DNA from: Sipunculus nudus | Lineage: Eukaryota > Annelida > Sipuncula > Golfingiida > Sipunculidae | Assembly (NCBI GenBank): GCA_026874595.1 | Contig: CM049306.1 | Span: 3,114,019-3,178,018 of the forward strand | Length of the DNA: 64,000 bases | Direction: 5' to 3' | Shown here: positions 6,986-55,238 of the stretch, in pieces | Layout of the letters: each line of letters starts with the position of its first letter | Position numbering within the stretch: position 1 is the stretch's first letter | The notes under the pieces: model-generated | The model's input: only the letters and a program-made list of their open reading frames with translations | What the model was told of the DNA's origin: nothing | Database searches by the model: none | Program-made: the position numbers and the translations under genes

Positions 6986-8100
6986 GACCTCATTAACTAA
7001 GGACCCATGGGTCTCAACGTTCAGCTGTATTTGTCCATAAGGATATTTTAAAAGAATTTTTATGGATGACTGTCCTGTGACCTTAACCAATGACTTTGTG
7101 ACCAAAAAATCTGATAACTTATTATCCTTGAACTTGCAGAATTTAGATTATTGTAAAATTCTTCTAAAAAATGCAGATCAAGTGAACCTTGACCTCTCAC
7201 CCGGTAACCTCAAAATCTACAGATTTCTTCCACTTTGGGCAAGTAAGCCATGGGTGAAAGATGGAAAGTTTTGGATGAAAAGTTTGATTTACATTCATCC
7301 ACAATCATTTTTAAGATATGGCTCCTGTGACCTTCACCTTTGACCTCTGGACCCTGAAAATCAAAATGATTTTTACTTATGTGGAAGGTTATTAAAAATA
7401 AAGTTTGAAGCCAATCTGTCTAGCCAAAGCAGAATTATCATCCATAAACTAGTTTGTGAATGGATGGGCCTTATGACCTAGACCTTTGACCCTATGACCT
7501 CAAATCAAGGGCGGGTGAGTAATATCTTGAAGATGGAAGGGTTGTGATGAAGTTTGGCTTGAAATGCATACACATTCCTTTTAAAGAAATGGGTCCTGTG
7601 ACCTTGACCTTGGGACCCTAAAATCAACAGGGTTTTTACTTTAGTGGTGAGCCATATATGAGTAAAGTTTGAAACCAATATCTCAGACTAAACTGGAGTT
7701 ATCATCTGGAAACTAATTTGTGGACAGATGGTCCCTGTGACCTTGACCTTTGACCCCAAATTCATTTATGCTCTCCCTATACTGGCAAATCCCCTAAATG
7801 TGCAAGATGGAAATTTTGGGATGAAAAGCTTGGCTTAAAATGCAGCCATAATCTTTTTAAATAAATGAGTCTTGTGACCTTGACCTCTGACCTCATGACC
7901 CAAAAATCATACAGGTTCTTTCTTTAATGATGGGCCATGTGTAAGTCATGTCTGAAATCCATATGTCAAGCCAACCTGGAGAAATCATCTGGAAACAAAT
8001 TTGTGTGGATGGACAGAGGGACAGACAGATGAACAGACAGACAGACAGGGTGATTACTATAGGGAATCAACTTGAGATCAATAAAACACACCAGGTTTTT
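6986..8100 (+). mobile_element. Pearl-like core-repeat element 1 (TGACCTTTGACC cores)
   Basis: Begins ACTAAGGACCCATGGGTCTC, a variant of the CAAGGG terminal motif. It continues as about seven diverged core units, each carrying a 'GTGACCTTGACCTTTGACC' type run and a 'TTGAAATCCATATGTCAA' type run. It closes with a (GACA)n microsatellite near 8020-8050 and a short tail GGGTGATTACTATAGGGAAT. This start-core-microsatellite-tail design matches pearl elements described from bivalves. A second full copy lies at 9080-10600. Confidence 0.7.
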
Positions 8101-8734: not shown

Positions 8735-9079
8735 TCATCTGTGTACTACAAATATAACTAAACATCTGTGTACTACATATATAACCAAACATCTGTGTAC
8801 TACATATATAACCAAACATCTGTGTACTACAAATATAACCAAACATCTGTGTACTACATATATAACCAAACATCTGTATACTACAAATATAACCAAACAT
8901 CTGTGTACTACAAATATAACCAAACATCTGTGTACTACAAATATAACCAAACATTTGTGTACTACAAATATAACCAAACATCTGTGTACTACAAATATAA
9001 CCAAACATCTGTGTACTACAAATATAATCAAACATCTGTGTACTACAAATATAACCAAACATCTGTGTACTACAAATAA
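8735..9079. repeat. 27-bp tandem repeat, 12-13 copies
   Basis: Unit ATCTGTGTACTACAAATATA followed by ACCAAAC, with very few substitutions (CATATATA for CAAATATA in some). Because 27 is a multiple of 3 the unit leaves several frames open on both strands, giving apparent 9-residue protein repeats that I regard as artefacts. It separates the two pearl-like arrays. Confidence 0.95.
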
Positions 9080-13894: not shown

Positions 13895-16800
13895 CAAGGG
13901 ACCCATGGGTCACGGCGCTCAGCTGATCGTGATTGGACTATAAATGTTTCTCCACTGTGATACTATATCTAGTCAAGGAGATTACAGACTGGAGTATCAA
14001 CTGTCAGAAGCCTCGAGTGTCAGTCGTGCGCTAATTGCAATTAAAACCTGATAAGCCCATTAACTCTATTGTGCCTCTATTGTGCCGCGGTGTCAGGCGC
14101 AGCGGCGGCAAGGCCTTTGATAATTTCATAAAGCGAGTCTGCTAGATGTTACTTCGCGGTCCGCTGTAGCTCGCTGAAGTGGAGAGCGATATATCCAGTA
14201 ACTGAGCGGTATATCACTGGAATAACATTGACCAGAATTATGAATGCGCAAATGGTTTGTTTTGTCAAGAATTATGCGTCACAAATATATCTAGAGAGGT
14301 CTTGTGTTGAGGAATCACTGGATCGATTTTGGGATAGATGCGGTCACTCTGCATCAACTTCTGCTGTAATTCATGACGGACGACTGTTAAAAGTAAACCT
14401 TACTTTCCCTGAATAACTTCGGAATTATAAAAATTTACATCAGTTCCCACACTTCTGACATATATCAATAATTAGCCACGTATTATAGTATTCCGTCAAT
14501 AACTAAATATTTTGACGCTTATGATCGGATGACTTTCATTTTGATGGATAACAGTGAGCAATCTCCCGCTCTGTCACTGACGGCCTTGTTCTCGTATTAT
14601 CGCCCATTTTTACCGCAGCCGGGAATTAACGAGATGTTCTGAAGTCACGCCGAAGGGGGGTCTCTCGCGCTGTATCAATTAGCGCCGAGCTTATCAGCGG
14701 CATCTCTGTGTCCCTTTGAGCAGCAAGTTTTATGACCCCAGTCAGCAACATTCGACACGGCCAGACTCTCACTTGATACTCCAGTCTGTAATCTCCTTGA
14801 TCTAGTCGATAAAGCTTATGAATATCATGGACATGTTGGGCTATTATAAAGGAATGTAATGTAATATGTGAGTAAATGATAAATGAAATTACCTGACTGA
14901 TGGATTAATAGAGTCAAATATAGTGGTTTATTTTTTATTTATTTAGGAGGGGTTGAAAATTGTGATATATTTGAGCAAATATGAATGCAATGACAGCAGT
15001 AATAAGCAGTAGTAGAATGATGATAAGGCTATTTGTTGAAGGATCTAAAGTGTATGGTAGTCTGCGAGCTTTCAATTTGACAGATATGATGTTATGATTA
15101 ACTATGCTGATGAAGTGATTTATGAATTTGTGACTGTATGACACAATATCTCTTTAGTCTTGACAAGGTACATTATTGTGATGCCCACTATGTCTACATA
15201 TTACACAATATTGACATAATTTCTGGCATGTACATAGGTACCAATGGACGAATAGTTATACAAAATATTAAAGTATGAATATATCTGATTCATCTTGTTC
15301 TTGCTTACTGAGGCTGACTTTGGGAGGGGGTTTGGAGAAGGGAAAAGTGAGGGCAGCACGAAGGTGGATGTAGAAATATTCTATTGTAATGTTTTTCATT
15401 CATATAAGAATATGAAAAGCTAAGAGGAAAGGGGCCCTCCTACTTGGTTAAAGTACAGTTCTAAATATATGATTGCAAACTAATACTCTGACAAGACTGT
15501 CATGAAGAAAAACAGTAAAAGTTTTGAGATACTGTGATGCATATGAAAATTTACAGATGGACAGGCAAGTGGACAGAATGGACTAATACCTTTATTTCAC
15601 TTTCAAGGGAATAATGCATTTAAGTTTATTTATAATCCTATTTTTTTTAAGCATATCCACTTTTTCCATTAAGAAGTTTTTATCTGAATCATTTTTTTAT
15701 TTACAGGTTTTATAAATTTTTAATAAAAAAACCTGAAAATATAAGTTAAAATATTAGAATTGTTGCAAAAGTTGCAATCATTATATATACAGAGTAAAAA
15801 ACTGAAACTATAAGTTAAAATATTAGAATTGTTGCAAAAGTTGCAATCATCATATATCCAGAGTGTAGCTCATATTGGGTCATATTATGCATACATATAT
15901 ATTTTATTATTTTTAAATCATAAATGTTTAAACTGAATTTAAAAGAAAATAATGCAACAACATGGCATCTACAAGAATATTCCTTGAATCACTATTAAAA
16001 AGTTTTGCACAATGGAGTTTTCAGTACATGCTTAATTTTATTCACCAAAATAAAATAAAAGTAAATTTGATAAAATAAAACATCTTTTCAAATAAAGTAT
16101 ACACACTGTTGGTTGAATGAGGGACAAACAATATCATTGTGCTAATTACTATCCCAGTTTTAATTTATTACTGGAATTAATAGTCAGTTTCACACCTGGT
16201 GAAGTTTTTACTCTTCTGAAGTAAGGAATTACTTATCTCATGAACATCCACACTTTCATAGCAATACACCACTTTGTGTACACAATTAAATGTACACTTT
16301 AATCATTGTAACCCTGGTGGTACAATACAAAATCTAAAATGTAGCATGTCCAAGAATAAAATAAAATACAGAAAATTATAACATTCATCTAGTTTATGCA
16401 CCAGCTGGGGGGGGGGGGGGGGAATGAGTGCAGGGCAGAGGGGAAGCCTGCTGGTAGTGGCCAAGCTGGGCCAAGGCAAGCTGCCTGGGGTGGGTTACAT
16501 AATGCAAGTGAAGGCTGTACTACTAGGTGGATAAGATGTAAACAACACTTGACATGGTGTATGAAAACATGAATAAAAGCTATTCTTACCAATCAATTTC
16601 TTTGAAATTTCAGATTTTAAAAGATTAAATCCTCATGTATATATGCTGTGAAAATTAAATCAACAGTGCCAAAGTTGGACAAAATTTAAGGTATTGATTT
16701 TTTATTTATGCTAATAACTTGAAAAATTTGCAAAATTCAGATCTAATTTTGGGTAAACAATTGAATCTTGATTAAATAAAGTTATATTCCTGAAAAAAAG

Positions 16801-23500: not shown

Positions 23501-24956
23501 AAAATCACTCATATCTTGGTAGTGGTTTGACTTATCTGCCAAAAATTTTGCATGTTTATACATCTTGGATAGCCTTTTGTGGCACATGGCACCACCTGCA
23601 TACACATTTCAGCTGCAGACATCCATGCTAATATGCAACACACCTCACACTCTTTCCCCTTGCCACTCAGTCCATGCCTCACTTCACTTCTCCCACTCTG
23701 ATTTTGGCAGATACACGTAGTCGCTTGTTGACTACCCGTATTCTAGTTTGTAATTGTTATTGGGATTTTTGGAAGTAATTTTAATTGTAATGATTACCTT
23801 TCAATGTAACCCTGGTGATGAGTGACTAGACAGTATCAGCGGCTAACTTGCAACAGCAGCCCTAGAAGCTGACCTTTTTAGACAATGAGGACTCATTGAG
23901 GTGGCAGATGCTGCTGCATACTTGTGATCAATTTTAAGCTGTAGATATGTTCATGTCATTTTTTAGCTTAGTTGACATAAAGTCATCTGAGCTATAGCGA
24001 TTGTGCTTTGTCCTTCTGGCTGGAGGACCATTAACAAGGCACTTTTTTTTAGCGAACCTGTGAGCTTATGCGATGGTGTGGCATCGTCCGTCGTCTGTAC
24101 GTTAACCCATACTATCTTGAATACTGCGAGAGTTAGCATCATGAAATTTTTATGCAAAAAATTAGTCATCTGAAAAACTCTATCAGATTTTGCTTATTTT
24201 TTGGCTAACTGCATTTTCTTAGATTTTATAGGGAAAAAGCTAAAAAAGCTTTAAAAATCTTCTTCTCCGAAACTGTTCAGCCAAATTGTCCAATATTTCA
24301 CAGAGATGATTCCTGGAACAATCTCTCTCAAGTTTGTTCAAATGGTTTAATTTTTTGCCGAGTTACAGGAAGTTGAACTTAGTCATCTTTCCAAAAAAGC
24401 ATACTAAAATTACAATCTCAGAAACAGCTGAAGCAATCATCACCAAATGTTATGCCAAGGTTGGTCACATGAGTCATAACTGAAATTGAGGTATTGGTGG
24501 CGCCACCTGCATCGGCCTTTTTTGTACGGGGGTCAGCAGTGCCCGTATGATACTGACGGCTACAAAAAACTTCTTCTCTGAAACTATATGGCCAAATTCT
24601 TTAATATCACACAGAAATGATCCTAGGGTAGTGCTTTCTGAAATTTGTTCAAATGGTCTCAGTTCAGTTACTTTTGACTGAGTTATGGGAAGCTGAATTT
24701 AGTCATATGCCATAACAGCCCATTTCAGCTCAGTGGCTACAAAAATCTTCTTCTCAAAAACCACAGGGCCAAATTCTTAAATCTCACACATTAATTATCC
24801 TTAGATGTTGATAATTCAAGTTTGTTCAAATGGTTTTGGTTCAGTGATTTTTGGCCGAGTTATGGGAAGCTTAACTTAGCCATAATGCTGTATTTTCCCA
24901 TATGAGTTATAAACCTGCAAAACGATTTTTGATTCATGCCACTGAGGCCAATTTTT
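20544..24956 (-). repeat. Mosaic of 'AACCTGTGAGCTTATGC' and AGCT-hairpin repeats
   Basis: Reverse-oriented AGCT hairpin ends occur at about 20797 and 23965, followed by GTCC/GTCTG-rich tracts. A different start motif, TTAGCGAACCTGTGAGCTTA followed by TGCGATGGTGTGGCATCGTC, recurs with variations at about 21440, 21627, 22543 and 24050. Each is followed by 'TTTTTTGGCTAACTGCATTT' and 'TGGTTCAGTTCGGTGATTTTTGGCCGAG'-like runs and the palindrome GGTGGCGCCACC (23172, 23315, 24497). A reversed hairpin-ended 'GTATCCCC' terminus is at about 22875-22930. There is no coding content. Confidence 0.65.
22412..22476. repeat. TCTAGA palindrome cluster
   Basis: Six TCTAGA palindromes lie within about 65 bp, arranged as GTCTAGAC and ATCTAGAC units separated by 2-8 bp. 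They sit within the repeat mosaic and look like a short tandem expansion. Confidence 0.8.
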
Positions 24957-26905
24957 AGCTCAGCTGACTATAAGTCATCTGAGCTATAGTCGTGGTCCAT
25001 TGTCCGTCGTCCGTCCGTCCGTCAGTCCGTCCGTCCGTCCGTCCGTAGATGTGGCACGTTTTGAAACCGTAAGACTTAGGAATCCAAAATATTGCATAAT
25101 GTTAGCTGTCCCCAAGATCTCCTACCAAGCCGAAAACTGGGTCTTTGCGACTTTGTTCCTTTGAGAAATTAAGGAAAAACCTCAATTTTTTATTAAAAAC
25201 CTATTTTCACACTTTAGGGCTGCCTAATATCAAAACCACTCATCTGTTTTTCCTCATATTTACCATAAATATTCCTCTATATAGTTCCTATGTACATGCC
25301 TGAAATTATGTCTGTATTATATAATTTAAGAAAGTTATGGGCCCAAACATAATGCACTTTGTAAAAAATCAAGAAATATATTTACTCCCTTAACAAGGGG
25401 CTTGCTGAAGCTAGAGATTTTTTGTCAGGGATGTAAGATTATTTAATCAAGATTCAATTGAATACCCAAAATTAGTTCTGAATTTTTTAAATTTTATAAG
25501 TTATTAGTATAAATATAAAATTAGTACCTTAAATTTTGCCCAACTTTGACCATTTCACTTTTGTTTCATGTGAGCTCTGTTTATATAATTTTCATATCAT
25601 GCACACACAAGGATTTCAGCTTTTTAGTTTAGAAAGCTGAAAGAAATTGGCAAAAAATTGTAGCTTTTATTAATGTTTTTATGAGACCATGTCAGACCTT
25701 GGCTCTCTCCAGCCACTCTTGAGTCACCTGTATGTCGACCTTGTTGAACTTTCAGCAAATTATGCACGCTTGAGGCGAGGCAGATACCGGGGCAACAAGG
25801 CAGCTTATGGCCAGCCACAGTTGATCCAGGTGTCCAACCCAACTCATCAAGTAGTTTTAACCAACAACATAACAATAAATTAATCAATTTTTATTGGTTT
25901 TTAATAACAAATTAAAGAAAAATAGAAAAGGAATTTGTTAGTTTATATTAATAGGGAAATAACTTGCAGTTACTGATGATATAAGAATCTTGTATTGATG
26001 GATATTATGTCACGTATTCAAAATAACACCATGCAGTCACCTATGGCATTTTTAGTTCAATTTTAATAATAAAAAAGTAAATCATATTATTCATTACTAA
26101 TCATTAGGGATCATATGAAGGAAATTAATGATAGACAAAGATGCAGTTGATAATATTAATCTAGATTCCTACTGTGTCTAGTGTGTACATTGATGTGAAA
26201 TTAGTCCAAAATAAATATATCACATTTATTTTTTTTTAATATAAATAAAAGCCATAAAACCAGGTACTTATGATCATTATTTAAATGTGTTAATTTTGTA
26301 CATTCTGGATTCTCAACACCATTGTTTGGTGAAAACTGAATAAATACCAGACATGGTGGGAATACTTTGCAATTGTATTTAAATACGAATATGAATATGT
26401 ACTCCATTATAAAATTTCTTGCATAAAGAATGGGAATTCAGGAAAAAATGAAAGTATATGAATACCAGTGCAAATACTTTCCAAATGTATTCATGAATGC
26501 ATTCATGAATATATTCTTTAATATTATTTTAATAATCATTTCAGTTATATTTCATTTTAAAAATCATACGATTCTCTTATTATTTTTAATAAAAATTATA
26601 TCTGGGACAATATTTGTAATTTTTTTAATAAATAGTTAAACTCTTATATTATATGTTCTGCTTATAAGTTATATGGCCAAGTCAAAATCTGTGTGACAAT
26701 AGTACTCCATTTGTTAATAAAATAAATGAAATCAATTCTCTTCTCTGTCTCCAAAGGTACTATCAAAATCATACATAAGCTTAACAACAACAACTCATAA
26801 TACAGCTTATACTTATTACCACACAAAACCAGCATGTGCCTCATTTCTAAATCATATTTTTTTATCATATATAACAGCTGAGCGCCGTGACCCATAGGTC
26901 CCTTG
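24957..26905 (-). mobile_element. CAAGGG...GAGCT element, complete reverse copy
   Basis: Begins with the AGCT hairpin end (AGCTCAGCTGACTATAAGTC, then CTGAGCT), followed by a (GTCC)n tract at about 25010-25050. It ends with the reverse complement of the CAAGGG motif at 26875-26905. It is 1,949 bp, with TT on both flanks. A GC-richer patch at 25685-25865 within AT-rich sequence may be captured foreign DNA; I do not recognise its possible translation on either strand. Confidence 0.7.
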
Positions 26906-28374
26906 TTTAAATATTTTACAAGAATAATCCCCTGAATAATTCTTATAATGATTATCTTTCATGGGTCCAAAGAATGAATTTTGGCTGAATATTAAAGATT
27001 GAATTAAGTCATTTTACCATATATGTTAGCTGTGTAAAGCAGATTCATCTAGCCTGGCACCAGTTTATCAGCATCCGTTACATCATGCCTCTAGACCTTC
27101 AGATTTCTATGGTTATTATTGACAAGAATGTTTTTTAAAAGATTTTAAAAAAGTAGATTTATGATTTTTAGATATTCTTCATGCCAGGCAATGTTAACAA
27201 TCACAGGTATACAGCTCCCTGTGGGTATATAAAGATGGCTATACATAGATTATAAATAATTGGTATCCATGCTCAACTTAATTCAAGATTTTGCCATCAG
27301 TGAGATGTATCTGTATTATAATTTTGCATTCAATATGCATCCGTAGTAATTTTTAGTGAACCTGTGAGCTAATTCGATGTTGTGGCGGCGTCCATTGTCC
27401 ATCGTCTGTACGTTAACCCATACTATTCTAAAACAAGGGACCCATGGGTCACAGCGCTCAGCTGATCGTGATTGGACTATAAATGTTTCTCCACTGTTAT
27501 CCTATAGCGAGTCGATAAAGCTTATGAATATCATGTACATGTTGGGCTATTATAAAGGAATGTAATGTAATATGTGAGTAAATGATAAATGAAATTACCT
27601 GACTGATGGATTAATAGAGTCAAATAAAGTGGTTTATTTTTTAGCTCAGCTGACTATAAGTCATCTGAGCTATAGTCTTGGTCCATTGTCCGTCGTCCGT
27701 CCGTCTGTCCGTCCGTCCGTAGATGTGGCACGTTTTGAAACCGTAAGACCTAGGAATCCGAAATTCAGCATAATGTTAGATGTCCCCAAGATCTCCTACC
27801 AAGCCAAAAACTGGGTCTTTGCGACTTCGTTCCTTTGAGAAATTCAGGAAAAACCTCAATTTTTTATTTAATTCCTATTTTCACACTTCAGGACTGCCTA
27901 ATTTCAAAACCACTCATCTGTTTTTCCTCATATTAACCATAAATATTCTTCTATATAGTTCCTATGTACATGCCAGAAATTAAGTCTGTTAAGTATAAAT
28001 TCTTTAAGTTATGGGCCCAAACATAATGGACTTTGTAAAAAATCAGGAAAAATATTTACTCACTTAACATGAAAAATTTTGAAACTAGAGTCTATTTTCC
28101 CAAGTATATAACTATGTTTAATTAAGATTCAATTGTTTACCCTAAAATTAGGTCTGAATTTTGTAAATTTTTTAAGTAATTAGCATAAAAATAAAATCAG
28201 TACCTTAAATTTTGCCCAACTTTGACCATGGCACGTTTTTTTCCTGTAAGTACCATTGATTTAATTTTCACAGCATGTAAACATAAATATTTAATTTGTT
28301 TAAATCTGAAATTTGGAAGTAAAAGCTTGAGGCTCTATTGTAGTCATTTTCTTTGATTACAGATTACAGATGCA

Positions 28375-28490
28375 GGATCCCACTCCAGGTCACTGGAAGT
28401 CAGCTATGCCAGGGTTTCTGATTTGTTACAGTCACTGGGGGAGATCCCCTGCTGTGACAGGTGTACAGTTATTCTGATATCACCACCCCA
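28375..28490. repeat. GC-rich captured segment shared by three elements
   Basis: The run CCAGGTCACTGGAAGTCAGC onward, through GTTACAGTCACTGGGGGAGA and TCCCCTGCTGTGACAGGTGT, is nearly identical at 28391-28480, 59430-59515 and, reversed, at 62768-62850. It stands out by base composition within AT-rich elements. One frame is open in all copies (reading SLEVSYAR then DLLQSLGEIPCCDRCT), but I recognise no family. Confidence 0.5.
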
Positions 28491-29191
28491 ATCCCCCCCC
28501 CCCCCCCCCCGCAAACCCAACCCACCAAGTGTTATGCAGTATTGTTATTGTTCTCACTGTATCTCCTTAATTGTAATGCTGTTTCCACTCTGATATGCAA
28601 AAACTTTCCTTAAAAAAGTAATTCAAGGTGTAATCCAGAAGATGCAATGTTGTGTAATGTAACATTTTTAAAGAAATCATTTTTCTTTTAAATGATTTTA
28701 CCAATCATAATGGAACCCATCAGTATGCTTAAATTATGATAAAATATGAAGCACATTATGGATAAATAAAGACACAATTCAAAATTGTGAAATCTAAATC
28801 AAGTATTTTTTTTAGACATTTATTGTTTTGCAGATTTAAAAGATATATTTTTGTGGTAAAAAATAAATAAACATTTGTATGCATGATGTGGTGTTATCTG
28901 ACAAGATTGAGATTTATGATGATGCAATTGAGAATTATGAATCAACTTTTATATTCAGATATATATGTTATATTGAAAATGTATAGAAATATAAACTTAA
29001 ATTAAAAAAAAATTGATGTGATAAAAAAATGTGGATTTGTTACAAACATTTGTTCATTATTTTCCTGCATCAGCAGAATTTGAGATCAGGCTTTGTTTGC
29101 CATGTTTTATGTTGTTAATTAGTTATATTTCAACTGTATACATTTCATAAAAAAAACATATTTAATAATTTATATTATACAAAAAAAAGAT

Positions 29192-29470
29192 TTGATTGAA
29201 CAAATGTGTAAACTACTGAAATGTCAACAGTTAATCGAAAAGCCAACTAATGATCATGGTAATTGTACAGATCATTTGTTCACAAACTGCTCACATGCTT
29301 CAGTTTCAACATTAGGAAACACATGGTCAGGTCACAAAATATTATTTGCAACAATTTCTTGCTCATCAATACAAACCAATCATATAAACAAACCATGGCC
29401 TTTATTACCTCTTCCTCTTACACTTTATCTCCATTTGATATTATTTAAATTTTTACCTTCAAGGTTAACG
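29192..29470 (+). pseudogene. Non-LTR retrotransposon endonuclease fragment
   Basis: An open frame contains the runs CQQLIEKPTND, TDHLFTN and WSGHKILFATIS. Their order and spacing fit the C-terminal part of endonuclease domains of LINE-type elements, where 'QLV-PTR-LD-FTN-SDHxxVF' is typical; the catalytic Asp-His appears as SGH. It is only about 90 residues long, with no reverse transcriptase, so it is a decayed piece carried inside a CAAGGG element. Similar pieces are at about 60480-60740, 61370-61560, 62420-62705 (reversed) and 12390-12530 (reversed). Confidence 0.5.
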
Positions 29471-32440
29471 TCAGCTGAGCATAGTGACCCATAGGTCCCT
29501 TGTTATTTATTTAGGAGGGGTTGAAAATTGTGATATATTTGAGCAAATATGAATGCAATGACAGCAGTAATAAGCAGTAGTAGAATGATGATAAGGCTAT
29601 TTGTTGAAGGATCTAAAGTGTATGGTAGTCTGCAAGCGTTCAATTTGACAGATATGATGTTATGATTAACTATGCTGATGAAGTGATTTATGAATATGTG
29701 ACTGTATGACACAATATCTCTTTAGTCTTGACAAGGTACATTATTGTGATGCCCACTATGTCTACATATTACACAATATTGACATAATTTCTGGCATGTA
29801 CATAGGTACCTATGGACGAATAGTTATACAAAATATTAAAGTATGAATATATCTGATTCATCTTGTTCTTGCTTACTGAGGCTGACTTTGGGATGGGGTT
29901 CGGAGAAGGGAAAAGTGAGGGCAGCATGAAGGTGGATGTAGAAATATTCTATTTTAATGTTTTTCATTTATATAAGAATATGAAAAGCTAAGAGGAAAGG
30001 GGCCCTCCTACTTGGTTATAGTAAAGTTCTAAATATATGATTGCAAACTAATACTCTGACAAGACTGTCATGAAGAAAAACAGTAAAAGTTTTGAGATAC
30101 TGTGTTGCATACGAAAATTTACAGATGGACAGGCAAGTGGACAGAATGGACTAATACCTTTATTTCACTTTCAAGAGAATAATGCATTTAAGTTTATATA
30201 TAATCCTATTTTTTTAAGCAGATCCACTTTTTCCATTAAGAAGTTTTTATATGAATCATTTTTTTATTTACAGGTTTATATATTTTTAATTAAAAAACCT
30301 GAAAATATAAGTTAAAATATTAGAATTGTTGCAAAAGTTGCAATCATAATATACACAGAGTAAAAAACATTGGGTCATATTAAGCATACACATATATTTT
30401 ATTATTTTTAATTACAAATGTTTCAACTGATTTTAAAAGAAAATAATGCCACAACATGGCATCTACAAGAATATTCCTTGAATCACTATTAAAAAGTTTT
30501 GCACATTGGAGTTTTCAGGACATGCTTAATTTTATTCACCAAAATAAAATAAAAGTAAATTTGATAAAATAAAACATCTTTCAAATAAAGTATACACACT
30601 GTTGGTTGAATGAGGGACAAACAATATCATTGTGCTAATTACTATCCCAGTTTTAATTAATTACTGGAATTAATAGTCAATTTCACACCTGGTGAAGTTT
30701 TTACTCTTCTGAAGTAAGGAATTACTTATCTCATGAACATCCACACTTTCACAGCAATACACCACTTTGTGGACACAATTAAATGTACACTTTAATCATT
30801 GTAACCCTGGTGGTTCAATACAAAATCTAAAATGTAGCATGTCCAAGAATAAAATAAAATACAGAAAAATTATAACATTCATCTAGTTTATGCACCAGCT
30901 GGGGGGGGGGGGGGATGAGTGCAGGGCAGAGGGGAAGCCTGCTAGTAGTGGCCAAGCTGGGCCAAGGTAAGCTGCCTGGGGTGGGTTACATAATGCAAGT
31001 GAAGGCTGTACTACTAGGTGGGCTAGATGTAAACAACACTTGACATGGTGTATGAAAACATGAATAAAAGCTATTCATTCCAATCAATTTCTTTTGAAAG
31101 TTCAGATTTTAAAAGATTAAATCCTTATGCATATATGCTGGGAAAATTAAATCCACAGTGCCAAAGTTGGACAAAATTTAAGGTATTGATTTTTTATTTA
31201 TGCTAATAACTTGAAAAATTTGCAAAATTCAGATCTAATTTTGGGTAAACAATTGAATCTTGATTAAATAAAGTTATATTCCTGAAAAAAAGTCTCTAGG
31301 TTCAGCAATTCTCATGTTAGGTAAGTAAATATATTTCCTGATTTTTTTAAAAATTGCATTATGTTTTGGCCCATAACTTCAAAATAATACCCAATACTGA
31401 CCTAATTTTTGGTATGTTCATAGAAAATGTATAAAAGAATGTGAATACTAAATACGAGCGAAAACAGATCAGTGGTTTTGATATTAGGCAGCCTTGAAGT
31501 GTAACAATGGCTTTTTTTTATGGAAAACAGAGTTTTTTTTTCCTTAATATCTCGAAGGAACAAAGTCCTAATGACCCAATTTTTGGTATGGTAGGAGATT
31601 TTGGGGACATCTAAAATTATGTCAACAGCCTGGGGAGCATAGAGATGTGCACTGAATGACCTACAGTCATCAAAGTGGACTGCTTGACAATGTAAGGGAA
31701 TACAACAAGAGCCTCCAAAAAATTCCATAACTAGCCTAATTTTGCAGCTTTTATTTTCAAATTTCAGATTTTAACAGATTAAATCCTTATGTATACATGG
31801 TGTGAAAATTAAATCCACAGTACTTACAGGAAAAAAACGTGCCATGGCCAAAGTTGGGCAAAATTTAAGGTACCAATTTTATATTTTTGCCAATATTTAA
31901 AAAAATTTAACAAATTTTGATCTAATTTTTGGTATACAATTAAATTCTGATTAATTAAAGTTGTATTACTGGAAAAAAGTCCCTACCTTTAACACTTTTG
32001 GTCTTAAGTGACCAAATATCTTCCTGATTTTTTTACAAAGTCCATTATGTTTGGGCCCATAACTTTTTTAAATTATATAATACTGACTTAATATCGGGCA
32101 TGTACATAGGAACTATATAGAGGAATATTTATGGTAAATATGAAGAAAACCAGATGAGTGGTTTTGATATTAGGCAGTCCTGAAGTGTGAAAATAGATTT
32201 CTAATAAAAAATTGAGGTTTTTCCTTAATATCTCAAAGGAACGCAGTCCTATTGACCCAGTTTTTGGCATGGTAGGAGATTATGGGGACATCTAACTGTA
32301 TGCCGAAATTCAGATTCGTAGGTCCAACGGTGTCGAAACGTGCCAGTCTTACGGACGGACATCCAGACAGACGGACAGACAGACGGACGACGGACAATGG
32401 ACCATGACTATAGCTCAGATGACTTATAGTCAGCTGAGCT

Positions 32441-35141: not shown

Positions 35142-37150
35142 CCCATTGGTCTCGACACTCAGCTGAATTTGTCTATAAGAATATGTTTATGAGCTCTTTC
35201 AAAATATCAGTCCTATGATCAGTTTGAAGTCAACCTGTCTACCCAAACATCCATTAACAAATTTTTGAATGGAAGGGCCCTATGACCTTGACTTTTGACC
35301 AAGTGGCCCAAAAATAAAAAAAGAACTTTCCACTTTTGGAAGGTGCACAATGGAAGAGTTAGACTTTAATTCATCCACAATCTTTTTAAAGAAGTGGATC
35401 CTGTGACCGTTAGTGTTGGGACGATATGGGTTTTTTTTAATCATGATAATTATTCAAATTTAATCGCGATATACCGTGATATCGCGATATTTTTAATTAT
35501 TTATAATGGCATAAATAAGCCATCAATAATGATATTTATAACAACCACCTTAAAGTCTTGACTATATACAAGGGGTTAAGTATTAATGTCATTTATACCT
35601 ATTGTGCCAGTACCACAGAATGACCCATTACGTGATGTAAGTTGCATGAAGGTCCTGCAGGTGTGCAAGCTTGAGGCGCGGGAAGTCCTGCCCCCATCGT
35701 CGAATCACGCTTGTCAGAACTTTCCATCAGTTTCCTATAGCTACATAAAAGCCGGAGAATCCCGGCGAATTTTCGGAGAGCGTGTTATACCAATCATGGC
35801 TAAATATACTATCCCAATTTTATATGGCAAAATATGCAACCTGTATGGAATGTTCGATTCAGTTGTGACACTTTTATGTTGACATTTTCGTTCTATGCAA
35901 TAAAAGTGGAAATATGTGTATTTATTGCTCTTTCATTATAATGTTATTTTCTCCTGGAATTCTCAAGCTTATGTCCTCTCTGATTCATCCTGCTACTTCC
36001 ATACATTTCCGACTAATCCCGAAGTCTGTAAACACACGGTTCCCCCACACGCGTGTATTCAAATACATGTGGTTTATAAAATAAATGTAATTCTTTGAAA
36101 TAAATTTATTTGAACCTCAAGGGCTTGCTTGTGAACCAAAATTGTGAACAAAAATTAATATTGTGGTATTGCGATAATAGGAAAGTTGACGGTATGATAA
36201 CCGTAGCTGTCAGATATCGTGATAATACCGTATACAGGTAACCGTCCCAACCCTAGTCAGAACTTTCCATCAGTTTCCTATAGCTACATAAAAGCCGGAG
36301 AATCCTGGCGAATTTTCAGAGAGCGTGTTATACCAATCATGGCTAAATATACTATCCCAATTTTATATGGCAAAATATGCAACCTGTATGGAATGTTCGA
36401 TTCAGTTGTGACACTTTTATGTTGACATTTTCGTTCTATGCAATAAAAGCGGAAATATGTGTATTTATTGCTCTTTCATTATAATGTTATTTTCTCCTGG
36501 AATTCTCAAGCTTATGTCCTCTCTGATTCATCCTTCTACTTCCATACATTTCCGACTAATCCCGAAGTCTGTAAACACACGGTTCCCCCACACGCGTGTA
36601 TTCAAATACATGTGGTTTATAAAAATAAATGTAATTCTTTGAAATAAATTTATTTGAACCTCAAGGGCTTGCTTGTGAACCAAAATCGTGAACAAAAATT
36701 AATATCGTGGTATCGCGATAATAGGAAAGTTGACGGTATGATAACCGTAGCTGTCAGATATCGTGATAATACCGTATACTGGTAACCGTCCCAACCCTAT
36801 TGACCGTGACCTTTGATCTCATAACCCCAATATCAATAGAGTTTTAACTTTAGTGGTGGTCCATATATAAGTCAAGTTTGAAACCAATATTTCAATCCAA
36901 ACTGGAGCTATCATCTTGAAATTACTATGTGGACAGATGGCCCCCTTGATCTTTGACCTTGTTGCCCCAATATCCATATGTTTCTTCCAATATTGGTAGG
37001 TGAGCTATATCTGGAAGATGGAAAATTTTGGGTGAAAAGTTTGCCTTAGAATACATACATAATTTTTTAAAGAAGTGAGTCCTCTGACCTTGACCTTTGA
37101 CCTCATGACCCCCAGTTCAATAAAGATTCTTACTGAAACCCAGTGTGTTA
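35142..37150 (+). mobile_element. Pearl-like core-repeat element 3, interrupted by a hAT dimer
   Basis: Starts AGAGACCCATTGGTCTCGAC with ACTCAGCTGAATTT, a variant of the element start at 9080. Core units with TGACC runs continue to about 35410 and resume at 36800; a perfect TGACCTTTGACCT is at 37091-37103. The break is the hAT-like dimer at 35411-36799. Confidence 0.65.
35403..36807. mobile_element. hAT-like MITE, tandem dimer
   Basis: The element is 35411-36799. The left end is TAGTGTTGGGACGATATGGG and the right end CGTCCCAACCCTA, giving TIRs TAG(T/G)GTTGGGACG. The flanks GTGACCGT and TTGACCGT are an 8-bp duplication with one mismatch. The interior has ATATCGCGATAT-type palindromes. A second, nearly identical partial copy starts at 36256 (equivalent to 35713, period 543 bp) directly after an internal right end ending CCCTA at 36255. 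No transposase is present. Confidence 0.8.
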
Positions 37151-45399: not shown

Positions 45400-47215
45400 T
45401 TTTTTTTAACCTGTTTAACAGTAGGACAGCCTTTCATGTGCTGTTCATATTTCAGGGTTGAAATTAAGGAAGCCTTTAATATCCTGCTCTGATACCAAAC
45501 AATTGATAGTAAAGTAGCCTTTCTTTTCTTGGTCCGATACCAGACAAGCTGGTTATTAAGGTAGCCTATCATATCCCACTCCACTCTGATACCAGATAGG
45601 GTGGTAATTAAGGTAGTCCTTCATTTCCTGCTCTGATACCAAACAGGGTTGACATTAAGGTATTTTTTTTTTATTTCCTGCTCTGATACCATATAGGTTG
45701 GACATTAAGGTAGTCTATCATATCCTGCTCTGATACCAGATGAGAGGAAATTAAGGTTGCTTTTCATATCCTGCTCTGATAAAAGACAGGTTTGACATGA
45801 AGGTAGCTTTTCATATCCTGCTCTGATACCAGACTGGTTGGACATTAAGGTAGCCTTTCATATCCTGCTTTGATAACAGACAGGTTGGACATTAAGGTAG
45901 CCTTTCATGACCAGCTCCGATACCAGATATGGTGGACATTAAGGTAGCTTTTCATATCCTGCTCTGACACCAGATAGGGTGGTAATTAAGGCAGTCTTTC
46001 ATTTCCTGCTCTGATATCAGACAGGGTTGGTCATTAAGGTAGCTTTTCATATCCTGCTATGATACCAGACGTGTGGACATTACGGTAGCCCTTTCATATC
46101 CTGCTCTGATAACAGACAGGTTGGACATTAAGGTTGCTTTTCATGACCAGCTCCGATACCAGATATGGTGGACATTAAGGTAGCTTTTCATATCCTGCTC
46201 TGACACCAGATAGGGTGGTAATTAAGGCAGTCTTTCATTTCCTGCTCTGATATCAGACAGGGTTGGACATTAAGGTAGCTTTTCATATCCTGCTATGATA
46301 CCAGACGTGTGGACATTACGGTAGCCTTTTCATATCCTGCTCTGATAACAGACAGGTTGGACATTAAGGTAGCCTTTCATATCCTGCTATGATACCAGAC
46401 GGGTGGACATTACGATAGCCCTTTCATATCCTGCTCTGATAACAGACAGGTTGGACACTAAGGTAGCCTTTCATGACCAGCTCCGATACCAGATATGGTG
46501 GACATTAAGGTAGCTTTTCATATCCTGCTCTGACAACAGATAGGGTGGTAATTAAGGCAGTCTTTCATTTCCTGCTCTGATATCAGACAGGGTTGGACAT
46601 TAAGGTAGCTTTTCATATCCTGCTCTGACACCAGATAGGGTGGTAATTAAGGCAGTCTTTCATTTCCTGCTCTGATATCAGACAGGGTTGGTCATTAAGG
46701 TAGCTTTTCATATCCTGCTATGATACCAGACATGTGGACATTACGGTAGCCTTTTCATATCCTGCTGTGATAACAGACAGGTTGGACATTAAGGTTGCTT
46801 TTCATGACCAGTTCCGATACCAGATATGGTGGACATTAAGGTAGCTTTTCATATCCTGCTTTGACACCAGATAGGGTGGTAATTAAGGCAGTCTTTCATT
46901 TCCTGCTCTGATATCAGACAGGGTTGGACATTAAGGTAGCTTTTCATATCCTGCTATGATACCAGACGTGTGGACATTACGGTAGCCTTTTCATATCCTG
47001 CTCTGATAACAGACAGGTTGGACATTAAGGTAGCCTTTCATGACCAGCTCTGATACCAGATAGGTTGAACTTTTAGGTAGCCTTTTCATATCCTGCTCTG
47101 ATACCAGATGGGGAGGATATTAAAGTAGTCTTTCACTTGTTGCTCTCATTCTAGGCAGGGTTGACATTAAGGTAGCCTTTCCCTGATTTCAGACATTGTT
47201 TTATATCCTGCTCTG
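45400..47215. repeat. 48-bp minisatellite with higher-order structure
   Basis: Unit TCATATCCTGCTCTGATACC continuing AGACAGGTTGGACATTAAGGTAGCCTTT; about 36 copies. A marker variant beginning CATGACCAG(C/T)TCCGATACC recurs at 45906, 46142, 46472 and 46803, and a related CATGACCAGCTCTGATACC at 47038. Spacings are about 236 or 331 bp, so blocks of five or seven units were copied together. It lies about 300 bp downstream of the ARL-like stop codon and may be part of its 3' UTR. Confidence 0.93.
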
Positions 47216-48837: not shown

Positions 48838-50728
48838 AGACATTTCCTGGCACCTGTGGTGCCAGAGAATCCCCAGACATAGTACGCCCCCCCCATTTAA
48901 GAATAGGCCCCCATTTTTAGCAGCATATACTGACACTTGGCAAGCAATTATTGTTTCTTCCATCTATCAATCCACAATCTTTTTGAAGATGTTGGTCCTG
49001 TGACCTTGACCTTTGACCTCATGACCCCAAAATCAATTGGGGTCTTGCTTATTCAATGGGACAAATATAAGTCAAGTTTGAAATCTATACATCAATAAAA
49101 GCAGGAATTATCATCCACAAACTAATTTTTTGACAGATGGCTCCTGTGGCCATGACCTTTGAATTTGTGACCCCAAAATTGATATTGATCATCCACTTTT
49201 ATATATAAATCAATAGAGGTCTAGATTTATTGATGGACCATATATAAGTCAGGTTTGAAATCCATATATTAATCCAAGCTTGAATTATCATCTCGGGAAC
49301 TTATTTTTGGACAGATGGCTCCTGTGACCTTCACCTTCGACCTTGTGACCTCACAATTGACAGGCGTCTTCCTCTATTGGCAGGGGAACTGTATGTACAA
49401 GATGAAATGTCTGAGATGAAACGTTTGGCTGAAAATGCATCCACCATCTTTTTTAAGATGTGTCCTGTGACCTTGACCTTTGACCTCATGACCCCAAAAT
49501 CAATTAGGGTCTTGCTTTTCCAATGGGACATATACAAGTCAAGTTTGAAATCCATACATCAATAAAAGCACGAATTATCATCCAGAAACTAATTTTTGGA
49601 CAGATGGCTCCTGTGACCTTCACCTTTGACCTTGTGACCTCAAAATTGATAGGGGTCTTCCACTCTTGGCAGGTGAACTATATGTGCAAGATGAAAGATC
49701 TGAGATGAATTGTTTGGCTGAAAATGCATCCACAATCTTTTTGAAGATGTGTCCTGTGACCTTGACCTTTGACCTCATGACCCCAAAATCAATTGGAGTC
49801 TTGCTTTTTCAATGGGACATATATAAGTCAAGTTTGAAATCAATACATCAATAAAAGCAGGAATTATCATCCAGAAACTAATTTTTTGACAGATAGATCC
49901 TGTGGCCTTGACCTTTGACCTTGTGACCCCAAAATTGATATGGATCATCCACTATTGGCAGGTGAGCTATATATTCAAGATGGAAGACCTGGGATGAAAG
50001 TTTGGCTTAAAATGCATCCACAGTATCTTTTAAGATGCAAGTCCAGTGACCTTGATCTTTGACCTCATGACCCTAGAACCTATAGGGTTCTTACTTTAGT
50101 GGTGGGCCATACATAAGTGATGTTTGAAATCCATATGGCTATCAACACTGGAGATATCATAAGAGGCGTGTGATTTTCACCAAATATGGACACATTAAAG
50201 GTCAAGGCCACTCTCATGGTAAAGGTCATGACCCAAATGTAAATAGACCTCATCCCATAACCCATCCCTCTACATGTGCATAATATGAAAGAAAACTGTC
50301 CATTAGTTTTTGACTTATAATGCTTACAGTACTGTCAAGTGGCAATTATGGGATATTAAAAGGAATAAAAACAAGAAAAGAATAATAGGTGGCGCCACCA
50401 GTTTTTGCATATCACAAGGCTTACCAAGATCTTTGGTCACCTTTATTTTTGGACCAGTCCTTACAAGCTTATTCGAGATATTTAAGAATTTGTGTTATTT
50501 TCAGCAAAAATGGACCTATTCAAGGTCAAGGTCACTCTCCTAGCATAGGTCATGACCCCATTTTAAAAGGCTTCGTCCCCTTACCTATATCTATACAAAT
50601 GTAAAGTTTGAAAAAGATCAGTGAAATATTTTTTGAGTTATCCTGCTCACAAGGTTTTTCTGCGGCGGCGGCGGCGAGACCATCGTGAAACCATAGTATC
50701 CCGACTTTGTCTGGGGACACAAATATTT
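48838..50728 (+). mobile_element. Hairpin-ended 'GTATCCCC' element, copy b
   Basis: Starts near ACTAGACATTTCCTGGCACC with the hairpin GGCACC-TGT-GGTGCC and a poly-C tract. It ends with (GGC)n, then ATAGTATCCCGACTTTGTCT followed by GGGGACAC. The interior is a core-repeat array with TGACCTTTGACCT at 49007, 49474, 49763 and 49909. It is nested in TIR copy 2. Confidence 0.7.
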
Positions 50729-53324: not shown

Positions 53325-55238
53325 GAGACTGGTATGAAATACTGGCTGCTGTAAGAGATACTGGCTGGTGTGAACTACTGGCTGCTGTAAGAGATACTGG
53401 CTGGTATGAAATACTGGCTGCTGTAAGAGATACTGGCTGGTGTGAACTACTGGCTGCTGTAAGAGATACTGGCTGGTGTGAACTACTGGCTGCTGTAAGA
53501 GATACTGGCCGGTATGAAATAATGGCTGCTGTAAGAGATACTGGCTGGTGTGAACTACTGGCTGCTGTAAGAGATACTGGCTGGTGTGAACTACTGGCTG
53601 CTGTAAGAGATACTGGCTAGTGTGAACTACTGGCTGCTGTAAGAAATACTGGCCGGTATGAAATACTGGCTGCTGTAAGAGATACTGACTGGTGTGAACT
53701 ACTGGCTGCTGTAAGAGATACTGGCTGGTGTGAACTACTGGCTGCTGTAAGAGATACTGACCGGTATGAAATACTGGCTGCTGTAAGAGATACTGGCTGG
53801 TGTGAACTACTGGCTGCTGTAAGAGATACTGGCTGGTATGATATACTGGCTGCTGTAAGAGATACTGGCTGGTGTGAACTACTGGCTGCTGTAAGAGATA
53901 CTGACTGGTATGAAATACTGGCTGCTGTAAGAGATACTGGCTGGTGTGAACTACTGGCTGCTGTAAGAGATACTGGCCGGTATGAAATACTGGCTGCTGT
54001 AAGATATACTGGCCGGTATGAAATACTGGCTGCTGTAAGAGATACTGGCTGGTATAATACTGGCTGCTGTAAGAGATACTGGCTGGTGTGAACTACTGGC
54101 TGCTGTAAGAGATACTGGCCGGTATGAAATACTGGCTGCTGTAAGAGATACTGGCCGGTATAATACTGGCTGCTGTAAGAGATACTTGCTGGTGTGAACT
54201 ACTGGCTGCTGTAAGAGATACTGGCCAGTATGAAATACTGGCTGCTGTAAGAGATACTGACTGGTGTGAACTACTGGCTGCTGTAAGAGATACTGGCTGG
54301 TGTGAACTACTGGCTGCTGTAAGAGATACTGGCCGGTATGAAATACTGGCTGCTGTAAGAGATACTGGCTGGTGTGAACTACTGGCTGCTGTAAGAGATA
54401 CTGGCCGGTATGAAATACTGGCTGTTGTAAGAGATACTGGCTGGTGTGAACTACTGGCTGCTGTAAGAGATACTGACTGGTATGAAATACTGGCTGCTGT
54501 AAGAGATACTGGCTGGTGTGAACTACTGGCTGCTGTAAGAGACACTGGCTGGTGTGAACTACTGGCTGCTGTAAGAGATACTGGCCGGTATGAAATAATG
54601 GCTGCTGTAAGAGATACTGGCTGGTATGAACTACTGGCTGCTGTAAGAGATACTGGCTGGTGTGAACTACTGGCTGCTGTAAGAGATACTGGCTGGTGTG
54701 AACTACTGGCAGCTGTAAGAGATACTGGCCTGTATGAAATAATGGCTGCTGTAAGAGATACTGGCTGGTATGAAATACTGGCTGCTGTAAGAGATACTGG
54801 CCGGTGTGAACTACTGGCTGCTGTAAGAGATACTGGCCGGTATGAAATACTGGCTGCTGTAAGAGATACTGGCTGGTGTGAAATACTGGCTGCTGTAAGA
54901 GATACTGGCTGGTGTGAACTCCTGGCTGCTGTAAGAGATACTGGCCGGTATGAACTACTGGCTGCTGTAAGAGATACTGGCTGGTGTGAACTACTGGCTG
55001 CTGTAAGAGATACTGGCTGGTGTGAAATACTGGCTGCTGTAAGAGATACTGGCTGGTGTGAACTACTGGCTGCTGTAAGAGATACTGACTGGTGTGAACT
55101 ACTGGCTGCTGTAAGAGATACTGGCCGGTATGAAATACTGGCTGCTGTAAGAGATACTGACTGGTGTGAACTACTGGCTGCTGTAAGAGATACTGGCTGG
55201 TATGAAATACTGGCTGCTGTAAGAGATACTGGCTTGTA
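53325..55238. repeat. 36-bp minisatellite, about 53 copies
   Basis: Unit CTGGCTGCTGTAAGAGATAC followed by TGGCTGGTGTGAACTA, mixed with a second version ending CCGGTATGAAATA. It is very homogeneous and lies 140 bp upstream of the ARL-like internal exon, thus in its preceding intron. Since 36 is a multiple of 3, frames of 410 aa (-) and 244 aa (+) stay open as 12-residue repeats; neither has flanking unique coding sequence. Confidence 0.95.

Follow-up and report, generated by a model that had tools for sequence, protein, structure and literature searches.

A very probable non-autonomous Helentron family in Sipunculus nudus and the shared orientation of Helentron ends along chromosome C1

In a 64,000-nucleotide stretch of the Sipunculus nudus genome (assembly GCA_026874595.1, contig CM049306.1, positions 3,114,019 to 3,178,018 of the forward strand; hereafter the window), a 1,860-bp element at 27643-29502 lies inside a longer relative, which we call copy B. 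From its sequence, we classify the insert with high confidence as a non-autonomous Helentron (HINE). On chromosome C1, elements of several families share the orientation of their neighbours over about 5-100 kb, and weakly up to 1 Mb. Elements of this kind are already known; what is new here is a well-documented Helentron family for which empty sites and autonomous relatives have been located, and the orientation domains matter more than the element itself.

Copy B (CAAGGG...GAGCT) is interrupted by the insert in the opposite orientation, and a second relative, copy A, retains the empty site. The two copies match at 97-98.5% on either side of the insert, which establishes both the insertion and the boundaries given for it in the initial annotation. 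The sequence of the empty site had also been read correctly, although the 20-mer lies at 14925-14944 and not at 14926-14945. The filled site in copy B reads GGTTTATTTTTT-[AGCTC...CCCTTG, 1,860 bp]-TTATTTATTT, so that T6 in copy A becomes T 6+2. The initial annotation held that the element plus TT had been added. There are indeed two extra T's, but because the site is a T-run they are assignable to neither host nor element, and no true target duplication is shown. The CAAGGG...GAGCT by which the family had been named denotes the same element read backwards, its biological 5' end being on the GAGCT side.

The termini carry the parts that are named, in the available text of two reports, for HINE (PMC4067079) and for Cg_HINE (PMC7492417): subterminal inverted repeats (subTIRs), a GTCC-type microsatellite and a 3' palindrome (Table 1). 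Only 1 nt separates the inverted repeat from the terminus at the 5' end, against 22 nt at the 3' end, as expected from the earlier description of a repeat that is terminal at one end and subterminal at the other. Hairpins had been described at both ends. At the 5' end, none of 200 shuffled sequences folds as well as the terminal palindrome; at the 3' end a palindrome is present, but its fold is no better than that of shuffled sequences. No tandem array was found inside the insert at a TRF score of 200 or more.

Table 1. Positions in the window of the insert, its termini, its host copy and two empty sites.
Feature	Position	Strand	Remark
Very probable non-autonomous Helentron (HINE), 1,860 bp	27643..29502	+	5'-AGCTCAGCTGA...GGTCCCTTG-3'
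TTTTT at 5' junction, probably element-borne	27638..27642	+	Run here is T6, 27637-27642
5' palindromic subTIR/hairpin AGCTCAGCTGACTATAAGTCATCTGAGCT	27643..27671	+	DNA fold -9.6 kcal/mol
GTCC-type microsatellite adjoining 5' end	27681..27720	+	Sequence read
3' subTIR TCAGCTGAGC, inverted copy of 5' subTIR	29471..29480	+	22 nt from 3' terminus
3' palindrome GACC-CATA-GGTC, weak stem	29486..29497	+	5 nt from 3' terminus
TT at 3' junction (CTTG/TT)	29503..29504	+	Present in 19/19 other fetched copies
Copy B, 5-kb relative, recipient of insert	27434..32440	- (Helentron sense is minus strand)	CAAGGG...GAGCT
Empty target site in copy A, GGTTTATTTTTTATTTATTT	14925..14944	.	Sequence read
Second empty site, flanks of copy L002	26217..26224	.	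Flanks match 25916-26216 and 26225-26523 at 93%

When the insert was used as a DNA query against the 1.43-Gb genome (40 of 5,305 candidates scored), at least 37 further near-complete copies, at 94-97% identity, were found among the 50 matches listed. A 31-base pattern for the CAAGGG end matched the genome exactly at 7,197 forward and 7,190 reverse sites, and the same pattern reversed matched at none. Thus, the copy search, together with thousands of matches against none in the control, places the ends of this family far beyond chance. We fetched 19 of the 37 near-complete relatives and read their junctions. Every one has at least TT on both sides when read in Helentron orientation, in keeping with the earlier remark that other complete copies are flanked by TT or AA. 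The T-run of the 5' flank is five long in 14 copies, two long in two, and four, seven and ten long in one copy each, while that of the 3' flank is three long in 10, two in four, four in two, five in two and seven in one. Among the T- or A-runs of at least four in 76 sampled kilobases, 324 of 1,385 are exactly five long; compared with this background, the run of exactly five T's in 14 of the 19 copies looks element-borne. The host of copy L005 is a tandem repeat of about 28 bp with units CACCTGTTCC, which have one T at this place, and the copy is preceded by CACCTTTTT and followed by TTC. Because five T's stand where the host repeat has one, the T's appear to arrive with the element. Two autonomous copies on different chromosomes begin to resemble each other one base before TTTTT/AGCTC; taken alone, this shared TTTTT could equally reflect two T5 targets. 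Judging from these junctions, the element probably carries four or five T's with it, and the TT of the 3' side comes from the target. Five T's are not obligatory, since two copies have TTGTT and nested copies have ATT at the 5' junction.

Further empty sites were sought and found for copies L002, L014 and L012. The flanks of L002 match the window at 25916-26523, where the empty site reads AAATAAATATATCACATTTA against AAATGAATTTTT[..]TTTAG in the filled state, with about nine bases gone. For L014, the best-matching paralogue (among other HINE copies) reads CTTCAAATTTCC against CTTCATTTTT[..]TTTCC, with about two target bases gone. The other three L014 paralogues read CAATTTTTATT, CAATTTTTTATT and CAATATTTTATT; since these are T-rich at the site, a simple insertion into a T-run would suffice for them. 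The joined flanks of L012 were uninterrupted in all 40 matches listed (of 2,778 candidates), at 98% identity. Among 14 of these that were fetched, 13 read GGA-T6/T7/T8-CAATTTTGG (7, 3 and 3 sites, respectively), against T5+T3 in the filled site, and the remaining one has eight T's before AATTTTGG, with one base different after the run. No duplication beyond the ambiguity of the T-run was seen in the empty sites read, and a constant longer target duplication, which the initial annotation had named as contrary evidence, was found neither there nor in the 19 copies. On this comparison, some insertions probably cost the target a few bases on the 5' side.

Relatives of the insert that encode Rep and helicase domains were located on several chromosomes. 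The profile PF14214 gave at least 131 matches at E 1e-5 in the host genome (150 of 195 candidates scored) and no match in 14 control genomes. A stop-to-stop frame of 2,342 aa at C17:35.63 Mb contains DUF6570, Helitron_like_N and PIF1, together with an endonuclease match that falls just short of the cut-off, in a scan covering 1,999 of the 2,342 aa. A C-terminal endonuclease domain, here PF14529, defines Helentrons, and a frame of 2,420 aa on C13, which matches that on C17 at 94% over the Rep region, carries this domain at its end with 38.0 bits (cut-off 27.4); PF03372 is also above cut-off in the C13 frame. When the C-terminal endonuclease piece was compared with solved structures, only the end of the PIF1 helicase was matched at E up to 0.1. 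The autonomous Rep-helicase sequence contains what we take to be the HUH (PHIH), Y-x4-Y and Walker A motifs.

The ends of these relatives tie them to the insert family. At C17 the 3' end reads TCAGCTGAGCATCATGACCCATGGGTCACTTG/TTTTT, and relatives on C10 and C5 agree at 98.7-98.9% in the tail. The sequence common to the C10 and C5 elements, which are about 16 kb between ends as judged from positions, begins one base before TTTTT/AGCTCAGCTGACTGAAAGTCATCTGAGCTATAG. Their 5' end, TTTTTAGCTCAGCTGACTGAAAGTCATCTGAGCTATAG, is identical to that of the insert at 36 of 38 bases, T5 included; their 3' end, ...TCAGCTGAGCATCATGACCCAT(G/T)GGTCACTTG/TTTA, is related but not identical to the 3' end of the insert family. 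A Rep-helicase copy at C7:71.19 Mb (1,658-aa frame) ends in TCAGCTGAGCGCCGTGACCCATGGGTCCCTTG, the commonest variant among the listed CAAGGG-end matches, and has 178 bp of subterminal sequence in common with the insert at 77%. The autonomous relative with the same ends that had been anticipated is thus found in parts, with the 5' end at C10 and C5 and the exact 3' end at C7. A relaxed 3'-end pattern was also scanned over 16 tail regions (15 relatives and C13; L029-L044); it matched in the element's orientation in 10 and was absent in six, including C13. Two of the 10, L040 and L041, resemble one duplicated locus with the same 3' flank. Three further tail regions were added, of which L048 and L050 matched and L049 did so only on the other strand. 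Frames of 2,235 and 2,229 aa at C11:50.385 and C4:36.175 were rejected as partners, as no matching ends occur in the 13 kb fetched, and CAGCTCACCTGA, near position 94 of C17, was dropped as a candidate 5' end because homology to C10 and C5 extends past it. No DDE transposase with these ends was encountered, though no family-directed search was made. The Rep-helicase copies at C7:70980038 and C7:71189187, 209 kb apart, have the same 3' flank (tttagattcccattag) and are apparently a segmental duplication.

Copies are also found in tandem. A head-to-tail array occupies C7:39.955-39.9635 Mb. It consists of a 5' piece of 226 bp, a full element and four units, each 1,649-1,650 bp long, which differ from one another by 0-3 mismatches and 0-4 gaps. 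At the joints, CCCTTG/TTAAAATCC, the 3' end is joined to an internal TT of the element, and more 5' pieces lie upstream. Such an array could have arisen either by self-insertion and unequal crossing-over or by copying of a circle closed on the internal TT; it is compatible with rolling-circle transposition via a circle without being decisive. Copy L004 is directly followed by another 5' end (CCCTTG-TTT-AGCTC). Two side observations belong here. The C7 array (L045 and L020, C7:39949800-39963800) possibly records the birth of a satellite from a HINE. In L037 (C10:71594000-71596500, minus), positions 896-972 hold a Helentron 3' end ..GGTCACTTG and, 13 bp on, another 3' end, this one of the CAAGGG type (..GGTCCCTTG); end bypass would leave a doubled terminator of this kind.

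The Helitron2/Helentron reading advanced in the initial annotation is supported by termini that match those of Rep-helicase(-endonuclease) Helentrons, by insertion between T's and by the HINE anatomy. A cut-and-paste miniature inverted-repeat transposable element (MITE) with a 2-bp TT target duplication would also account for the exactly two extra T's in copy B and for the TT on both sides of all 19 fetched copies. We nevertheless consider it very improbable: the inverted repeat lies at unequal distances from the two ends, the matching ends belong to Rep-helicase elements, the five 5' T's of L005 against the single T of its host repeat indicate that the T's come with the element, and target bases have disappeared at L002 and, relative to the best-matching paralogue, at L014. 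A DDE MITE was accordingly rejected on its asymmetric repeats and the lack of a constant duplication, and a canonical Helitron (5'-TC, CTRR-3', a hairpin about 11 nt from the 3' end, A/T insertion) because the ends here are AGCTC and CCCTTG between T's. Several observations weigh against the Helentron classification. The 3' palindrome (GACC-4-GGTC) folds at -2.6 kcal/mol, with 54 of 200 shuffles equally good, and for a second 3'-end variant 158 of 200 shuffles fold as well. The 3' subTIR is 22 nt from the end here, compared with 38-60 in the mite (PMC4067079, as far as its available text goes). Among the autonomous relatives, those on C10 and C5 have stops within their Rep regions, no 5' end of the C7:71.19 Mb copy came to light in the 8 kb that precede its frame, and no single copy combines an intact protein with both ends, that on C17 being known with its 3' end only. 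Finally, the exact junction is blurred by empty-site T-runs that vary from T6 to T8 and by three of four L014 paralogues being T-rich, and the C7 array admits the crossing-over alternative.

Among the known systems with which the family can be compared, the elements of IS200/IS605 are much smaller and have no helicase. They are bacterial and transpose by peel-and-paste, yet they resemble Helentrons in their HUH chemistry (IS608, PMC4778049) and in that the orientation of copies records replication direction (PMC5371812), a link shown there and inferred here; this and the following comparisons extend to the available parts of the papers cited. HINE/DINE-1 elements (PMC4067079) share with the present family the subTIRs, a 3' palindrome (whose fold here is no better than that of shuffles), insertion in T-rich targets that leaves two or more T's on either side, the lack of target duplication, a variable T number and a Rep/helicase/endonuclease partner. 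They differ in that the 5' T number is mostly exactly five here, and orientation domains are not mentioned in that text. Cg_HINE of the Pacific oyster (PMC7492417) likewise has a 5' subTIR with a complementary inverted repeat, a GTCY/GTCC microsatellite, a 3' subTIR, a palindrome and TT insertion. For Cg_HINE, however, both orientations and no preference for chromosomal segments are reported, co-orientation of neighbours is not mentioned in the available text, and the element described here has no internal tandem array. Helitron2/FoHeli of Fusarium (PMC5148889) is similar in its asymmetric terminal inverted repeats, hairpins, self-insertion and tandem junctions; unlike the present family, FoHeli1/2 insert between TNAT and T, and no variation in number was observed there, in contrast to reports on Helentrons.

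A mechanism can be proposed for the non-autonomous Helentron. The Rep of an autonomous partner (HUH, two tyrosines) would nick the T-strand at the 5' T-tract, and the helicase would peel the nicked strand as far as the 3' palindrome. This strand, or a circle made from it, would then attach by its 3' CTTG to a TT of exposed target DNA, and the element's own T-tract would close the 5' side, sometimes with the loss of a few target bases.

The orientation of copies along chromosome C1 is far from random. The first 100 CAAGGG ends comprise 80 plus and 20 minus and form 16 runs compared with 33 expected (0 of 20,000 shuffles as low), and the genome-wide strand total is balanced. Four more lists of the first 100 ends on C1 were added: the TGT and GAC subfamilies of the CAAGGG end (genome-wide strand counts 1,015/971 and 1,501/1,557), the CAAGTGACCCATGGGTCATGAY end (3,126/3,195) and the unrelated 5' end AGYGAACCTGTGAGCT (2,230/2,109), for which the strand sign was flipped as it marks the opposite element end. 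These lists span 48.5, 27.5, 18.0 and 20.5 Mb of C1, respectively, and those of TGT and GAC overlap the first CAAGGG list up to 3.5 Mb. Runs tests gave p values of 0.011, 0.008, 0.0012 and 0.0014 in the same order.

Across families and subfamilies, the pairs with the same sense numbered 23/25 at 0-5 kb, 81/87 at 5-20 kb, 127/158 at 20-50 kb, 163/248 at 50-100 kb, 236/420 at 100-200 kb, 696/1153 at 200-500 kb and 1131/1991 at 0.5-1 Mb, reaching chance beyond 1 Mb (1774/3441 at 1-2 Mb); these pairs are not independent, and the counts cover C1 alone. As a null, the strand series of each family was shifted circularly and independently 2,000 times, which preserves the family's own clustering. The observed fraction exceeded the highest of all shifts at 5-20 kb (0.931 vs. 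0.701), 20-50 kb (0.804 vs. 0.715) and 50-100 kb (0.657 vs. 0.645), and the p value was 0.049 at 100-200 kb, 0.0015 at 200-500 kb, 0.007 at 0.5-1 Mb and 0.26 at 1-2 Mb. Comparisons with the nearest neighbour point in the same direction: among 87 CAAGTG ends that have a CAAGGG end within 200 kb, a fraction of 0.736 share the sense of the nearest one (a value that none of 99 shifts reached), and 68 of 92 AGYGAACC ends that of the nearest neighbour within 100 kb (shift maximum 62). When pairs 5-50 kb apart were taken by 200-kb blocks, 46 of 60 blocks agree and six disagree, and between 0.23 and 1.17 Mb of C1, 56 consecutive ends of the combined lists lie in one sense. Some single-family bins depart from this smooth picture (GAC, 0.34 of 38 at 100-200 kb; TGT, 0.48 of 60 at 200-500 kb), and the insert at 27643-29502, opposite to copy B, is itself an exception to co-orientation.

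The controls with other repeats bear on how specific this is. CCTGTGACCTTGACC..., picked as a non-Helentron control, turned out to be a 289-bp tandem repeat whose strand agrees with these domains as well, and as it stands this run does not separate Helentrons from other repeats. Its hits within 15 kb on one strand (r289) were collapsed from 100 to 34 and excluded from the pooled counts; as duplicates, L020, L029 and L041 were left out of one repeat scan, and these and L040 out of another. The 289-bp repeat (CCTGTGACCTTGACCTTTGACCTCATGACCC) is also present in the window around 48997-50073, has 3,865 + 3,866 exact genome matches and is perhaps the central repeat of another Helentron family. For a second control, the hAT-like element at 35411-36258, the nearest Helentron end is on the other strand in five of the six copies in the mapped part of C1, a comparison in which the strand label is arbitrary and n too small.

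We infer that a polar process, one that leaves one of the two strands exposed, determines the target strand. A preference for the strand richer in T-runs would suit elements that stand between T's, yet it is scarcely credible as the source of the domains. T-runs and A-runs of at least five number 31 each in the flanks of 18 copies (L004, whose flanks are other copies of the family, was excluded), the window outside HINE matches holds 147 A-runs and 139 T-runs, and in the 76 sampled kilobases, after masking, the bias goes the wrong way (79 A and 98 T in plus domains, 127 A and 72 T in minus domains). Base skew did not differ significantly between plus and minus domains (38 + 38 kb, masked; TA +0.022, standard error 0.036; GC -0.044, standard error 0.034). 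Segmental or tandem duplication, nesting or preferred mutual insertion could also produce co-orientation, and nested and tandem copies do exist. This origin is unlikely, however, because the effect links families with different ends (at 20-50 kb as counted above, and weakly to 1 Mb) and because the nested insert is opposite to its host copy.

This leaves a polar process at integration, whether the replication fork or transcription, or selection linked to the gene strand. We tentatively propose that Helentrons of all families in this genome join target DNA in one orientation per domain via the lagging-strand template or another exposed strand of fixed sense. There is a precedent in IS200/IS605, which insert in the lagging-strand template (PMC5371812, available parts). 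An origin in transcription, through selection against one orientation in introns or through insertion into the transcription-exposed strand, is plausible, though less likely than not: the steep decay over about 50-100 kb is of the order of gene spacing, but the 56 same-sense ends in a row are long for gene strands, and agreement as high as 93% at 5-20 kb would hardly be expected if intergenic copies were oriented at random. Replication is slightly favoured because the domains reach about 1 Mb and short-range agreement is near complete. Both sources are named by the Helraiser authors, who consider lagging-strand replication or transcription-driven supercoiling as possible origins of single-stranded DNA; in the available text they report random insertion and no local hopping from genomic donors, a result that does not bear on orientation (PMC4778049). 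No report of orientation domains of Helitrons or Helentrons was found in the literature examined, which consisted mostly of papers outside subscription, available in part (including PMC4067079, PMC7492417, PMC5371812, PMC5876387, PMC4778049, PMC13286980, PMC2575219 and PMC5148889).

The window holds other repeats besides these. Another Helentron-like family is represented by its ends at 27355-27379 and 24051-24075; these read TTTTTAGYGAACCTGTGAGCTWATKCGATG, with a GTCC-type stretch after it, and have 4,339 exact genome matches. The element at 35411-36258, with ends TAGTGTTGGGACGA / CCCAACCCTA, is non-autonomous and presumably hAT-like; it has copies elsewhere at 95-97%, and an internal pattern gave 205 genome matches with up to two mismatches. 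Short-unit tandem arrays lie at 287-2815, 8736-9078, 45584-47181 and 53329-55234, with units of 35/61, 27, 47/94 and 36 bp, respectively.

For the single-stranded DNA that Helitrons need, the available text of PMC4778049 names the two candidate sources discussed above. With more than 14,000 exact ends, one family in Sipunculus nudus permits a direct, sequence-only test between replication and transcription. If the tentative proposal above is true, the orientations of Helentrons would preserve, readable from sequence alone, a fossil map of the direction in which replication forks move in the germ line of an animal. Helentrons would then be a eukaryotic counterpart of IS200/IS605, and their copies would allow forks to be mapped where no assay exists.

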